A stretch of DNA of 64,000 nucleotides from Sphingobium indicum B90A (GTDB lineage: Bacteria; Pseudomonadota; Alphaproteobacteria; Sphingomonadales; Sphingomonadaceae): contig NZ_CP013070.1 in assembly GCF_000264945.2 (NCBI RefSeq), forward strand, positions 3,366,501 to 3,430,500. The letters are read 5' to 3'. Below the pieces are notes generated by a model. It ran no database searches and was not told the origin of the DNA. It saw only the letters and a list, made by a program, of their open reading frames with translations. This document shows positions 2,747-58,711 of the stretch, piece by piece. Each line of letters begins with the position of its first letter. Position 1 is the first letter of the stretch. The translations under genes were made by a program, and so were the position numbers.

Positions 2747-2815
2747 ATGGGCTCCTGCGAAGGCAGGAGCCCAGTCCCACCGTCCGAACTGGGCTCCTGC
2801 CTTCGCAGGAGCACG
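2747..2815. repeat. Palindromic repeat, family A, copy 1
   Basis: Two inverted halves, each itself a small palindrome (GCTCCTGCGAAGGCAGGAGC), separated by about 17 bases. Three more copies are at 47895, 50116 and 53884. The paired arrangement resembles REPIN-type intergenic repeats. It lies between the sulfotransferase stop and the exporter gene. Confidence 0.85.
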
Positions 2816-2958
2816 ACATGTCAGGAACGCCTCCTTCGAATCACCCCCAAAGCGCCCCGCCCCTCGCCCCTTTTTGCCCGCCCGCGATCCGTTATTGCCC
2901 GCCCCTGAATCAGCCTAAGGGCTTAAACTTCCGCCCTATCCATCGAGAGGGGACGCAG

Positions 2959-19181: not shown

Positions 19182-21592
19182 CCGCGCAGCGTGCCGCCCA
19201 GCTTTTCCGCCGCCTTCACCACCGCGGCGCTGATCGCGTCCAGTTCTTCCTGGGAAAAGCTTTTTTCGCCGGGTTGCAGCGTGATCTCGACGGCAAGACT
19301 CTTCTTGCCCTCCTCAACGCCCGGCCCGACGAACAGGTCGAACAGCCGCGCATCGACGATCGCCTTCTTGTCCGCGTTCCTGACGGCCCGGACCAGCGTT
19401 TCGGCTTCGACGGCCTCATCGATGACGAAGGCGAAGTCGCGCTTCACCGCCTGCAAGGCCGGCGGCGCATAGGGCGCGCGCATGAAGCCGCTGGCCCGCT
19501 TTGCGGGGATCGCGTCCAGGAAGACCTCTCCCGCGACCACCGTGCCGGTCAGCCCGAACTGCTTGGCGAGGCTCGGATGCAGCACGCCGAATTCCGCCAG
19601 CACGGTCTTCGGCCCCAGCCGCATCGTGCCCGACTGGCCCGGATGATAGGCGCCAGACGCCTCGCCGAAGCTCTGCAGATTGGCGACGGGCGCCCCCGCC
19701 GCCGCCAGCAGCGCGATCACCTCGCTTTTGGCGTCGAAGACGGAGAAGGGCTGCGCCTTCCCCGTCTGCCAGCCCCGCGCCACCTTCTCGCCCGCCAGCA
19801 CGAAGCCGACGGTCGCCCGCTCCCTGTCCGCCAGATAGCGGCGGCCCAGCTCGAACAGCCGCACCGCCGCCGCGCCCCGATCCGCGTTCCGCCGCGTGGC
19901 CGAAAGCAGGCCGGGCAGCAGGGAAGGCCGCATGACCTTCAGATCCTCCGAAATCGGGTTGGCGAGGGTCCATGCCCCGCCGCCGACCGCGGCGGCCTCC
20001 TTCTCCGAAATGAAGGACCAGTTGATCGCTTCGGCCAGCCCGCGCGCCGCCGCCGTCCGGCGCACGCGCCGCTCGACGGCCTGTTCCGGCGTGGCGGTCG
20101 GCTTGGCGACGCCGGGGGCGCGGGGCAGGGGGGTGGAGGGCACCTGATCCAGCCCGACGATGCGCACCACCTCCTCCACGATGTCAGGCCAACCGTCGAC
20201 GTCACGCCGCCAGCTCGGCACCGTCACGGTCCAGTTGGCCGGGGTGGTGACCGGCACGCCGTCCTGATATTCGAAGGTGGCGTCATGGCCCTCCACCGCG
20301 AAGCCCAGGCTTTCCAGGATGCGCTTCTGCTCGGAATCCCCCACGTCCACGCCGGCCAGCGCCAGGCATTGCGCCGGATCGTAGGTCACGGTCTTCGCGG
20401 CCGCCGGCGGACTGCCGGCGCGGGTCGCCTCGCTCGCGCTGCCGCCGCACAGATGCGTCACCAGATAGGTCGCGATCGACAGGCCGTCGTCCAGGAAGGC
20501 GGGGTCCACCCCACGTTCGAACCGTGCGCGGGCGTCGCTGGTCAGCCCCAGCTTCTGCCCCGTCACCGCGATCCGCTCCGGCGTGAAATAGGCGCATTCG
20601 ATCAGCACGTCGGTCGTGGCTTCGGTGGCGCCCGAATGCTCGCCGCCCATGATGCCGCCAATGTCGTGGACTGCCTCGTCGTCGGCGATCACGGTCATGC
20701 TCTCGTCGACGGCGTAGCTCTTGCCGTTCAGCGCCAGCACCTGCTCGCCCGGCCTGCCGCGCCGCGCCACCAGCCCGCCCTTCAGCGTCGCCATGTCATA
20801 GACGTGCAGCGGCCGGCCCAGATCGATCATGATGTAATTGGTGATGTCGACCAGCGTGCTGATCGGCTTCTGCCCGATGGCCTTCAACTGCTTGGCCATC
20901 CATTCGGGCGAACTGCCGTTCCTCACGCCGCGCACTGTCCGCGCGAAGAAGGCGGGACAGCCCTCGGCATCCTCTATCCGCACGTCCGGTCCCGGCCCGG
21001 CCGCCTCGATCACCGGCACGATCAGCGCATTTAGCGTGCCCAGCCCCGCCGCCGCCAGGTCGCGCGCGATGCCGCGCACGCCCATGCAGTCCTGCCGGTT
21101 GGGCGTGATCGACACGTCGATGACCGGATCGTCCAGCCCGGCCCACGCCGCATAGGACTGCCCCACCGGCGCGTCGGCGCTGAGTTCGATGATCCCGTCA
21201 TGATCCTCGCCCAGTTCCAGTTCGCGGAAGGAACACATCATGCCGTTGGATTCGACGCCGCGAATCGCGGTCTTCTTCAGCACCATGCCGTTGGCCGGCA
21301 CCACCGCGCCCTCTGTCCCGAACACGCCGACCAGGCCCGCCCGCGCATTGGGCGCGCCGCAGACGACCTGGATGGCGCCCTCGCCCGCATCCACGGTCAG
21401 CACCTGCAGCTTGTCCGCCTGCGGATGGCGCTCCGCCGTCAGCACCCTGGCGATGCGGAATGCGCCCAGCTTTTCCGCCGGATTCTCCACGCCCTCGACC
21501 TCAAGCCCGATGTTCGTCAGCCCCTTGAGGACCGTCGGCAGGTCCGCATCGGTATTGAGATGCGTCTTGAGCCAGCTCAGCGTGAACTTCAT
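19178..21592 (-). CDS. pheT: Phenylalanyl-tRNA synthetase beta subunit
   Basis: An 804-residue protein starting [18 protein letters not shown]. Residues 40-150 are the tRNA-binding OB domain ([29 protein letters not shown]). Then B3/4 editing ([15 protein letters not shown]), B5 and the pseudo-catalytic domain, and a C-terminal FDX-ACB domain ([20 protein letters not shown]). It forms the alpha2-beta2 enzyme with PheS. The ATG overlaps the pheS stop, and its own stop overlaps the DUF4386 start. Confidence 0.97.
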
Positions 21593-22692
21593 GCGCCCAC
21601 TCCTCCGCTCAGCGTCGGCACGTCCAGCGCCGAAAAGCCGTAATGTTTGAGCCAGCGCAGATCGCCGTCGAAGAAAGCGCGCAAGTCGTTCATCCCATAT
21701 TTCAGCATGGCGAGCCGGTCGACGCCGGTGCCGAAGGCAAAGCCCTGCCATTCGTCCGGATCGAGCCCGCACGCCTCGATCACCCGGCGGTTGACCATGC
21801 CGCTGCCCAGCACCTCCAGCCAGCCGCCGCCCGGCGCGTCGCCGTCGCCGCCGATCACCCGCTGGCCGCCCGCCAGCGTATAGCCGACGTCGACCTCCAC
21901 CGAAGGCTCCGTGAAGGGGAAATAGCTGGGCCGCAGGCGCAGGACGATGTCGTCGCGCTCGAAAAAGGCCTTCAGGAAGGTCTCCAGCGTCCATTTGAGA
22001 TGGCCGAGCGTGATGCCCTTGTCGATCACCAGCCCCTCGATCTGATGGAACATCGGCGTATGCGTCGCGTCGCTGTCCGACCGATAGACCCGGCCCGGCG
22101 CGATGATGCGGATCGGCGGTTCCTGGTTCTTCATCGTGCGGATCTGCACGGGGGAGGTGTGGGTGCGCAGCAGCATCTTCTTCCCGTCCCCATCCTCATC
22201 GCTTGTGTCGGGGAAGTAGAAAGTGTCGTGCATCGCCCGCGCCGGATGCGTCTCGGGAATGTTGAGCGCGGTGAAATTATGCCAGTCGTCCTCGATCTCC
22301 GGTCCCGTCGCCACGGAGAAGCCGAGGTCAGCGAAAATCTCCGCCAGCTCGTCCATCACCTGGCTGACCGGATGCACGGACCCCTGCGGACCGATGTCGG
22401 CGGGCAGGGTCATGTCGATCTTCTCGGCCGCGAGCTTCGCATCGAGCGCCGCCTGCTCCAGCGCCGCCTTCCTTTCCGCCAGCGCCGCCGTCACGCTCTC
22501 CCGCAAATCCTGGATCGGCGGGCCTTTCTCCAGCCGCTCCTCCGGACTCATCGGACCCAGCGTCTTGAGCAGCCCCGTCACCACGCCGTTCTTGCCCAAG
22601 GTGCCGACCCGCAGCGCCTCCAGCGCGTCGAGCGTGTCGGCGGCGGCAATATCCGCGATCAGGCCGGCTTTCAGATTGGCAATCTCAGTCAT
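21589..22692 (-). CDS. pheS: Phenylalanyl-tRNA synthetase alpha subunit
   Basis: A 367-residue class II synthetase. Motif 2 is [12 protein letters not shown] ... [27 protein letters not shown], and motif 3 is [14 protein letters not shown]. The N-terminal coiled coil (residues 1-90) binds tRNA. The start at 22692 ([11 protein letters not shown]) is preferred: the longer frame upstream reads through family C repeat sequence (GSRFRGNDG), a sign of non-coding origin. Normally rplT lies directly upstream; here a nuclease and a LysE gene intervene. Confidence 0.97.
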
Positions 22693-22712: not shown

Positions 22713-22740
22713 CGTCATTCCCGCGAAAGCGGGAACCCAT
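22713..22740. repeat. Palindromic repeat, family C, left inverted copy beside the GIY-YIG gene
   Basis: 28 bases with core TTCCCGCGAAAGCGGGAA. It is the exact reverse complement of 23077-23104. The nuclease stop codon (TGA on the minus strand, 22715-22717) lies within it, so the repeat provides the C-terminal codons and stop. Confidence 0.9.
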
Positions 22741-23062
22741 CTCCTGCCCTCTCGCGGAGGGGTTCAAAGCCGAAAGCCAGGGCCAGATCATCCCATTCGG
22801 GATTTCCAGCCTCGATCAGCTCGATCTTCCATTGCCTGTTCCATTTCTTGATCCGCTTTTCCCGCAATATCGCGCCATCGATCGCGTCATGCATTTCGAA
22901 CCAGACGAGGCGCTTGACGCCGTAGTCGCTCGTGAAGCCTTCAATCAAGCCGTTTCGATGTTCGTATAGACGCTTTACGAGGTCGGAGGTAACGCCGGTG
23001 TACAGCGTCCCATTTCGGCGGCTCGCCAATATATAGACCGTTGGGCTGATTTCGCGTTTCAT
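22715..23062 (-). CDS. GIY-YIG endonuclease-family protein (stand-alone, repeat-flanked)
   Basis: A 115-residue single-domain nuclease. The GIY and YIG elements read VYILAS and LYTGVT (residues 9-24), followed by the Arg of [12 protein letters not shown] and the [17 protein letters not shown] block with a conserved Glu/Lys set. Proteins of this UPF0213-like group are short, lack a separate DNA-binding domain, and their role is poorly known. The last residues, [11 protein letters not shown], come from the family C repeat. The gene is enclosed by perfect 28-bp inverted repeats and sits between rplT and pheS, where such a gene is not usual. Confidence 0.9.
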
Positions 23063-23076
23063 GCATTCCTCGGGAT

Positions 23077-23104
23077 ATGGGTTCCCGCTTTCGCGGGAAT
23101 GACG
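23077..23104. repeat. Palindromic repeat, family C, right inverted copy beside the GIY-YIG gene
   Basis: 28 bases, exact reverse complement of 22713-22740, 14 bases upstream of the GIY-YIG start codon. Together the two bound a 392-base unit. Related, less perfect copies form the pair at 58620-58711. Confidence 0.9.
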
Positions 23105-23122: not shown

Positions 23123-23743
23123 TTACGCCCGCGCCCCCAGCAACGCCCCGCCGAAGCCGATGAACATCAGCCCCGTTCCCCGATTGAACAACCGCTGCCG
23201 GTTCGCGGGCGCCAGCCAGCGGGCGAGCTTCGCGCCCCCCAGCGCATAGACGCACTGCCAGCCGAATTCGATGGCGACGAAGCTCGCTACCAATATGCCC
23301 AACTGCATCGCAAAGGGCCGGCCGGTATCGATGAACTGCGGAAACAGCGCGGCCGCGAAGATGATGAGCTTGGGATTGCTGAGGCCGGTGAGCAATCCCG
23401 TGCCATAGAGCGCCCGCAGCGACCGCGCCCGCGTGGCGCCCACCTCGCCTGCTTCGCCCACCGGCGCGCGCCAGGCCTTGACGCCCAGCCAGATCAGATA
23501 GGCGACGCCGGCATAGCGCAGCCCGTCGAACAGGCGCGGAGAGGCTTTCAGCAACGCCCCCAGCCCCAGCGCGGAGGCGATCAGGCACAGCAGGATCGCG
23601 CTCATCAGCCCCGCCATGGTGGCGATCGCGCGGCGCGGACCATGATGGATGCTCTGCGTCATCACATGCAGCATGTTCGGTCCCGGCGTGGCCGAGATCA
23701 GGAAAACCGCCGTGACGTAGAGCCACCAGACATGCAGCGACAT
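23123..23743 (-). CDS. LysE/RhtB-family amino-acid exporter
   Basis: A 206-residue membrane protein with about six helices. It has the family signature SATPGPNMLHVM near residue 20 and LGVKAWRAP plus GLSNPKLIIFAAALFPQF at the centre. The family exports amino acids such as lysine, threonine or homoserine lactone; the substrate is not predictable. The start at 23743 has AAGGAG 8 bases upstream (AAAGGAGAAAACCC). It is separated from rplT by a terminator and so is probably transcribed alone. Confidence 0.9.
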   Translation of the reverse strand: MSLHVWWLYVTAVFLISATPGPNMLHVMTQSIHHGPRRAIATMAGLMSAILLCLIASALGLGALLKASPRLFDGLRYAGVAYLIWLGVKAWRAPVGEAGEVGATRARSLRALYGTGLLTGLSNPKLIIFAAALFPQFIDTGRPFAMQLGILVASFVAIEFGWQCVYALGGAKLARWLAPANRQRLFNRGTGLMFIGFGGALLGARA

Positions 23744-58619: not shown

Positions 58620-58711
58620 CGTCGTTCCCGCGCAGGCGGGAACCCATCTCCCGACCGTCCGGCTTGAGGCTTCTTATGGGAGATGGATCCCCGCCTCCGC
58701 GGGGATGACAG
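58620..58711. repeat. Inverted pair of family C repeats (REPIN-like)
   Basis: Left half CGTCGTTCCCGCGCAGGCGGGAACCCATCTCC (58620-58651), right half the rough reverse complement GGGAGATGGATCCCCGCC ... GGGGATGACAG (58678-58711), 26 bases between. Both halves match the 28-bp copies at 22713 and 23077, but no gene lies between them. Between a lipoprotein gene and the convergent ggt gene. Confidence 0.85.

Follow-up and report, generated by a model that had tools for sequence, protein, structure and literature searches.

Small GIY-YIG nuclease genes as probable partners of CGTC-tagged palindromic repeats in Sphingobium indicum and other bacteria

Introduction

In the chromosome of Sphingobium indicum B90A (NZ_CP013070.1), a gene for a 115 aa GIY-YIG protein lies next to pheS between two inverted copies of a short palindrome, and the question that this locus raises is what the gene and the palindrome have to do with each other. 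We examined a 64,000 nt stretch around it (positions 3,366,501 to 3,430,500, here called the window). A first-pass annotation had likened the arrangement to that of RAYT transposases and REPINs, where a nuclease gene is flanked by the repeats that it may move, but with a GIY-YIG enzyme. It had asked whether such genes are usually flanked by repeats, whether repeat number follows gene presence and whether close relatives have the site without the unit. Flanking, the matching of repeat families to protein lineages and, within the genus, the dependence of repeat copy number on the gene all support this likeness. As these are the marks of the relation between REPINs and RAYTs, we read the system in the same way: the repeats, which are repetitive extragenic palindromes (REPs) with a CGTC tag, and the small GIY-YIG nucleases are probably cognate pairs that work as REPINs and RAYT transposases do.

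CGTC-tagged REPs have been described as having a CGTC or TGTC tag, an 8–9 bp stem, a 4–5 nt loop and a CCA-like tail. They occur mostly in head-to-head pairs and chiefly in Alphaproteobacteria, and include dRS3 of Neisseria and RPE-4/6 of Rickettsia (PMC3733652). In that account, Di Nocera et al. (2013) report the repeats as unassociated with transposase genes and apparently served by no dedicated transposase; the word GIY-YIG has a count of 0 in the paper. Our literature search, which did not extend to subscription journals or preprints, found no paper tying GIY-YIG nucleases to CGTC REPs. Two candidates for a link between GIY-YIG and RAYTs (PMC10928387 and PMC7263005) were dropped, as 'rayt' in the retrieved text was part of an author's name.

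A GIY-YIG gene between inverted repeats

The unit (22713–23104; Table 1) is built as first described. A single open reading frame (ORF), encoding the GIY-YIG protein, is bracketed by perfect 28 bp inverted palindromes that are exact reverse complements of each other, and its TGA stop codon lies inside one of them, in the tag of the REP downstream of the gene. Both arms are inverted copies of CGTCATTCCCGCGAAAGCGGGAACCCAT with the tag facing outward, and each is itself palindromic, with a hairpin that has a 7 bp uninterrupted stem, a GAAA loop, a CGTC tag and a CCCA tail. The CGTC tag and CCA-like tail are those of the CGTC REP superfamily, which the palindrome, judged from its letters, fits apart from the 7 bp stem.

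Flanking repeats were scored as the best ungapped match between approximately 250 bp upstream of a gene and the reverse complement of approximately 250 bp downstream, a measure that is blind to the identity of the repeat, with a threshold of 14. The window gene scored 25, while none of 45 other window ORFs (non-overlapping, at least 300 nt, taken longest first, and ORFs rather than verified genes) reached 14. We conclude that the flanking of this gene by inverted repeats is not due to chance.

When up to two mismatches were allowed, the 18 nt core of the palindrome was found 26 times in the whole host genome, against two matches for a reversed control pattern, and it represents one of several such repeat families there. 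The gene-free pair near position 58620, which had been taken for the same repeat, is a member of the same family but not an identical copy; it has a different tag and loop, and its second arm reads CCCCGC..GCGGGG. Placement of the unit between rplT and pheS, names that we assume for these ORFs, held on the pheS side only, as an ORF that we take to encode a LysE-like transporter intervenes on the other side and rplT lies one gene beyond.

The ORF matched the Pfam GIY-YIG family at 54.3 bits (cut-off 22.6), and the Pfam search found no second domain in the protein. It is presumably one of the small, COG2827-like GIY-YIG proteins. Residues Y10, Y21, G23, R31, H35, E68 and N87 were kept at 99–100% among 186 related proteins without an internal stop; Tyr, Tyr, Arg, Glu and Asn residues have catalytic roles in GIY-YIG enzymes. 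An AlphaFold2 model had a confident core (mean predicted local distance difference test score, pLDDT, 84.7), and its closest structural matches, with E-values that were all weak (1.1e-3 at best), were to UPF0213, the UvrC N-domain and Slx1. At the sequence level the only structure matches were two UPF0213 members, 1zg2 (BH0048) and 1ywl (EF2693), hypothetical proteins of Bacillus and Enterococcus. These are the nearest solved relatives by sequence, and UPF0213 and Slx1-like proteins were also the nearest by predicted fold. The window protein thus belongs, by sequence, to the GIY-YIG nuclease superfamily and is a predicted nuclease. Elsewhere, one GIY-YIG gene (L038, G000:C1:42511) is broken by an internal stop and is still bracketed by CACCCCGG-type repeats.

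Flanking repeats at other GIY-YIG genes

The same measure was applied to 106 GIY-YIG genes of the genus and order (loci L001–L108, with identical genes removed), which comprised the best Pfam matches, the host genes, and the best 30 plus 40 further listed protein matches. Repeats flanked 92 of the 106 genes but only 7 of 624 intervals drawn at random from these loci, so such genes are usually flanked. The flanked genes included 69/79 in the main subfamily and 23/27 in a second one.

A wider sample of 130 genes, mostly from Proteobacteria with a few from other phyla, was drawn from 49 loci of the phylum (29 from the search and 20 fetched) and 80 of 526 confirmed loci in named genomes. Its loci were picked by protein similarity, not by repeats, and two genes with short flanks were dropped. 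Flanking repeats were found at 101/130 genes, against 8/520 control intervals, with 34/50 in the phylum set and 67/80 in the named genomes. Among the latter, flanked genes made up 33/37 in Alphaproteobacteria, 17/18 in Gammaproteobacteria, 6/7 in Betaproteobacteria, 2/2 in other Pseudomonadota and 3/3 in Myxococcota. Cyanobacteriota, Nitrospirota, Rifleibacteriota and Caldisericota each contributed 1/1, Planctomycetota and Omnitrophota 1/2 each, and no flanking pairs were found in the named Chloroflexota (0/3), Elusimicrobiota (0/1) or Ignavibacteriota (0/1). The Neisseria gonorrhoeae gene sits amid several dRS3-type repeats, but this proves little, as dRS3 repeats are mostly in large clusters in Neisseria (PMC3733652). 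An earlier impression that few of these genes have flanking repeats was discarded as an artefact of a hairpin pattern that was too narrow and of top Pfam matches that mixed in the other subfamily; the paralogs carry palindromes of their own.

The uninterrupted stems of 69 flanking arms were 8 bp in 42 cases, 7 bp in 22 and fewer in 5, and the loops fit the described form. In flanking pairs that scored at least 14, the tags faced outward at 56 genes, inward at one and were unclear at 12 in the genus and order set (69 genes), with corresponding figures of 72, 16 and 13 in the wider set (101 genes). In some REPs a further sequence is nested. A second palindrome with CCGAGTCACGTGCCTCGG lies in the tail of the left REP of L048 and L052, and also near rplT in L073, while the loop is enlarged by a stretch with GACCCGAAGGGCGGC in the left REP of L041 and in L369.

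Repeat families follow protein lineages

The host genome has 12 Pfam GIY-YIG matches, and flanks were inspected for ten of these genes. Nine scored at least 14 and the other scored 13, and at least five palindrome families were represented. Those at the paralogs were TTCCCGC..GCGGGAA, ATGCTGAAC..GTTTCAGCAT, ATGCCAGC..GCTGGCAT, GTGCTCCTGC..GCAGGAGC (two genes) and CACCCCGG-like (two genes), while genes of the second subfamily had CCGTTCGCCCTGAGC..GTCGAAGGGC and variants. With the patterns used, the host has 18 copies of TTCCCGC, 14 of GCTGAA and 17 of CCCTGAGC. A third repeat family (CGTTCGCCCTGAGC..), for which only a count was made, is present in 85/94 genus genomes and has 17 copies in the host. 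Repeats of the second subfamily start with CCGTTCG and lack the CGTC tag; they appear to form a repeat superfamily of their own that is paired with a distinct GIY-YIG subfamily.

Repeat labels were then compared with a FastTree tree of 233 GIY-YIG proteins, 163 of which were labelled; the 70 whose repeat could not be clearly labelled were left out, and six genes with two labels were assigned to the CTCCTG class. The label changed 19 times on the tree, against a minimum of 58 and a mean of 64 in 500 shuffles. With the second subfamily left out, there were 18 changes against a shuffle minimum of 37 (141 genes), and in the genus alone seven against 17 (60 genes). As label changes are few, genes of the same lineage in different species tend to share their repeat, whereas paralogs in the same genome do not. 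We conclude that the pairing of GIY-YIG genes with repeats is general and lineage-specific.

Repeat numbers follow gene presence

Two lineages were scored in 94 genus genomes by the exponent of the best E-value, with thresholds of at least 36 for the window lineage and at least 41 for the lineage that is found between ruvA and ruvB (the ruvAB lineage) and has GCTGAA repeats. The median number of TTCCCGC copies was 18 in the 43 genomes with the window lineage, none of which had zero. In the 51 without it the median was 1, and 23 had zero (P = 3e-11). Repeat number therefore tracks the gene, and the repeat is not equally common where the gene is missing. Likewise, GCTGAA had a median of 12 copies and no zeros in 26 genomes with the ruvAB lineage, but a median of 1 and 26 zeros in the 68 without it (P = 9e-10). 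Across lineages, the ruvAB lineage had no clear effect on TTCCCGC (P = 0.07; 94 genomes) and the window lineage a weaker one on GCTGAA (P = 0.002). The 25 genomes with only the window lineage had medians of 19 TTCCCGC and 3 GCTGAA copies; in the eight with only the ruvAB lineage these were 0.5 and 10.

Relatedness was allowed for by phylogenetic pairing on a pheS tree of 88 of the 94 genomes (G075, G095, G105 and G113 were not fetched, and G005 and G026 have a split or cut pheS). Copies were cut at 8, and 10 independent pairs on well-supported branches were compared. On average, gene and cognate repeat agreed in 5.5 and 5.9 of the 10 pairs and were opposed in 0.0 and 0.3; for the non-cognate repeat there was agreement in 2.5 and 2.7 pairs and opposition in 1.3 and 1.0.

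Among 299 genomes of the phylum, where the TTCCCGC pattern alone was used, at least five copies were present in 23/74 genomes with the gene and 23/225 without it (P = 5e-5), a moderate association. Eleven phylum genomes have at least 10 copies and no detected gene, though several of these are incomplete. Within the genus, the first-pass idea has held up against the observations that could have overturned it; at phylum level the co-occurrence is weaker.

The Y1 transposase family (PF01797) had no match in the host genome and was present in 23/94 genus genomes. REP numbers did not differ between genomes with and without Y1 (P = 0.74 and 0.91), and the association between gene and repeat persisted in the 71 Y1-negative genomes (P = 2e-8 and 1e-5). 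In the genus, the association of REPs with GIY-YIG genes is independent of Y1/RAYT.

Form and insertion sites of gene-free pairs

Thirteen GCTGAA pairs of genome G027 were chosen for having both arms match one 25 nt core exactly, so the identity of their arms reflects this selection. Their length is 86–90 bp and the middle part varies. The core starts GTCAT..; the base just before it was C in 13/13 and the base just after it G in 12/13. When four host pairs were added, a pyrimidine preceded and a purine followed in 17/17, bases that may belong to the tag of the element. Over six flanking bases, 78% were pyrimidines on the left and 75% purines on the right, compared with 46% and 43% at 20–60 bp away (17 pairs).

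When the joined flanks of 14 pairs were used to query the genus, two readable empty sites were returned. For the host pair at C1:2507209, the empty sites in G070, G011, G090, G101 and G066 (approximately 75–78% identity) read ..T^G.. with no duplication; there is a 3 nt gap a few bases to the right of the junction, and G010 aligns differently. For the G027 pair at C9:112656, the empty sites show ..C^G.. in both G012 and G063, and there is a 4 nt or 5 nt gap at the junction. Neither comparison, the first clean and the second with small indels, showed a target-site duplication, and it appears that REP pairs enter at pyrimidine-purine steps and do not duplicate the target. The L310 site in G106 and G008 was dropped as an empty site, as a truncated REP (CGTCATGCTGA) remains, and five further candidates (L299, L301, L305, L307 and L312) were dropped because the alignment at the junction was too poor. 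Half a REP is kept at the pheS loci of G070 and G011, and a more degenerate one in G003; such remnants may be scars with one end in the hairpin.

Genomic sites of gene-bearing units

The unit was found before pheS at 32 fetched loci in 31 genomes (L025 and L062 are one place), and close relatives do have pheS sites without it (58 fetched loci, 36 with a lysE–pheS gap of 66–107 bp). On the best pheS tree (88 genomes, 30 filled), presence and absence changed at least 17 times. Comparison of L109–L151 with L039–L068 revealed that most loci without the unit hold a conserved promoter-like segment of approximately 70 bp, CCTTTCCTTG..CTAAGGC, that is missing from filled loci. As the filled loci lack this segment, the event at pheS was old or a replacement, and the site was dropped from the target analysis because of this difference.

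The 105 GIY-YIG genes of the genus group into 24 site clusters. The GCTGAA-lineage unit lies between what we take to be ruvA and ruvB, presumably a Holliday-junction operon, at 14/23 loci (L034, G000:C1:3209668 and relatives). Other host units (L036, L032 and L033) lie before lpdA, era and dnaG, as named by reading the neighbouring ORFs and grouped by tblastn. In L372 (G107:C1:659000-662200), three GIY-YIG units are arranged in tandem with a 467 bp period, each with CCCCGGGCTTGACCCGGGG-type REPs. Four G036 contigs (L368–L371) end in an identical 438 bp stretch that contains a GIY-YIG unit. They were dropped as proof of transposition because the shared stretch at the contig ends exceeds the unit; for the same reason the unit is probably present in at least two copies, and the move is not clean.

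Alternative explanations

Several observations weigh against cognate pairs of the RAYT/REPIN kind. Neither cleavage nor movement was observed, and a clear flanking pair is missing at 14/106 and 29/130 genes. The lineage cut-offs were chosen after the flanks had been seen. In the genus, at least 10 TTCCCGC copies are present in ten genomes without the window lineage (58 in G034) and at least 10 GCTGAA copies in eight without the ruvAB lineage (43 in G091); in the phylum, G154, which is 99% complete, has 88 TTCCCGC copies and no detected gene. Such genomes would be explained if the gene had been lost once the repeats had spread, or if it scored below the cut-off. In the phylogenetic sign test the trend was kept at a median P = 0.06, but the test was underpowered and only borderline because few pairs are informative. 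The one clean filled/empty comparison was made at approximately 78% identity, and the other has indels at the junction. Finally, the gene tends to remain at a few sites, such as pheS and ruvA–ruvB, which resembles the behaviour of a resident gene more than that of an active transposon.

It seems unlikely that the enzyme is a housekeeping guard or resolvase that has coevolved with the REPs and cuts their cruciforms or hairpins to limit the damage, with spread of the repeats left to another enzyme. Slx1- and ANKLE1-type GIY-YIG nucleases are reported to cut branched DNA, fixed operon sites are common, and half-REP scars fit cutting within a hairpin. However, a guard should suppress repeat copies, which are high with the cognate gene and low without it. 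It would also leave the location of the gene inside a pair of the same repeats unexplained. No other mover was identified; Y1 transposases are uncorrelated with the repeats in the genus. A homing-like selfish gene is an improbable explanation. Its nuclease would cut empty REP pairs and the gene unit would be copied in by recombination, making REPs the targets and not the cargo. GIY-YIG enzymes are classical homing nucleases (PMC1564403), the gene unit is laid out like a REP pair in which the gene takes the place of the spacer, and the repeated gain or loss at pheS is in keeping with homing. Yet homing predicts many gene copies among dozens of REP pairs, and genus genomes have 0 to 8 matches that, among the matches listed per genome, are mostly of different lineages; the sampled genes cluster at few sites, and the gene-dependent spread of gene-free pairs is left unexplained. 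Known GIY-YIG homing endonucleases share a catalytic domain and a selfish-looking unit with the window unit, but have one allelic target, whereas here the gene lies between two whole ORFs, encodes a single Pfam domain and goes with dispersed palindromes.

We give little credence to the view that a RAYT/Y1 or unknown transposase moves the CGTC REPs, with the GIY-YIG genes as passengers bracketed by chance. Neisseria genomes do hold RAYTs. REPINs with RAYTs are also an established system (PMC3116915). However, the host has no Y1 gene, the association is intact in the 71 Y1-negative genomes, and a match between repeat family and protein lineage would not be seen in a passenger; the lack of association with transposase genes in the account of Di Nocera et al. 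(PMC3733652) points the same way. Co-inheritance alone, with gene and repeats both old, vertically inherited and kept together, is very improbable too. Genus genomes are not independent and the paired sign test was borderline, but the two lineages dissociate specifically in the same genomes, agreement exceeds opposition more clearly in cognate pairs (5.5–5.9 against 0–0.3) than in non-cognate ones (2.5–2.7 against 1.0–1.3), and co-inheritance leaves the flanking unexplained.

Proposed mechanism and significance

We therefore prefer cognate pairing of CGTC REPs with small GIY-YIG nucleases, and the evidence suggests that these enzymes are the missing partners of the CGTC repeats. That the nuclease moves the repeats is our inference from sequence comparison; action on the hairpins of its REPs, with their spread as the result, would be the simplest mechanism. 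A fuller proposal, which we put forward tentatively, is that GIY-YIG nucleases are the transposition enzymes of CGTC REPs, releasing hairpin-ended elements and inserting them at pyrimidine^purine steps without duplication. Each of many diverged nuclease lineages would drive a repeat family of its own, and several systems would coexist in a genome, in bacteria from Proteobacteria to some other phyla. Each nuclease lineage would recognize the hairpin of its own REP family, or the cruciform of the pair. The unit of REP, nuclease gene and inverted REP would be the autonomous form, and the gene-free REP pair of approximately 88 bp its non-autonomous derivative. The nuclease might nick the REP hairpin or cruciform, much as GIY-YIG enzymes of the Slx1-like kind cleave branched DNA. 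The released element could then be joined at a pyrimidine^purine step without target duplication, aided by enzymes of replication or repair, and half-REP scars would mark the occasional event that failed.

Both this system and RAYT (TnpA-REP)/REPIN have a small single-domain nuclease gene between inverted REPs, dispersed gene-free REP pairs and a repeat family matched to the enzyme lineage (for RAYTs, PMC3733652). RAYTs are HUH Y1 transposases that go with a GTAG tag, whereas here a GIY-YIG enzyme goes with a CGTC tag in a host without a Y1 gene. The window repeats share the tag, short stem, loop, CCA-like tail and head-to-head pairs of the CGTC REP superfamily, which was described as without a transposase link (PMC3733652); here a cognate nuclease is paired with them. 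DDE insertion sequences and miniature inverted-repeat transposable elements (MITEs) differ in generating a target-site duplication, of which the two comparisons above showed none.

The GIY-YIG genes provide a candidate enzyme for repeats that apparently had no dedicated transposase according to the 2013 account (PMC3733652), and the proposal could be tested by adding or deleting one gene. If true, it would represent a second, independent REPIN-RAYT way of life whose enzyme has an unrelated fold, and its enzymology would form a class new to mobile elements. It would also assign a role to small 'UvrC-like' GIY-YIG proteins, which are poorly understood; in Caulobacter, the COG2827 domain has been noted in three copies (PMC1839093). 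The matched lineages would offer a ready-made set for studying specificity in a tiny and perhaps structure-specific nuclease.

Features of the window

The positions of the unit, its neighbours and the other REPs of the window are listed in Table 1.

Table 1. Repeats and genes of the window (positions counted from its first nucleotide)
Feature	Position	Strand	Remarks
CGTC-tagged REP, 3' side of nuclease gene	22713..22740	+	hairpin TTCCCGC-GAAA-GCGGGAA; carries the TGA of the gene
GIY-YIG nuclease gene, 115 aa	22715..23062	-	Pfam GIY-YIG match
CGTC-tagged REP, 5' side of nuclease gene	23077..23104	-	tag outward; from sequence
Gene-free REP pair (REPIN-like dimer), same family	58620..58710	.	REPs at 58620-58646 (+) and 58684-58710 (-)
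Single REP, CTCCTG family	2788..2818	-	from sequence
pheS, neighbour used to locate filled and empty sites	21589..22692	-	presumed name
LysE-like transporter ORF, other neighbour of the unit	23123..23743	-	presumed name

The CTCCTG-family nuclease genes of the host, at C1:577810 and C1:47658, both lie outside the window that contains the single REP of this family.
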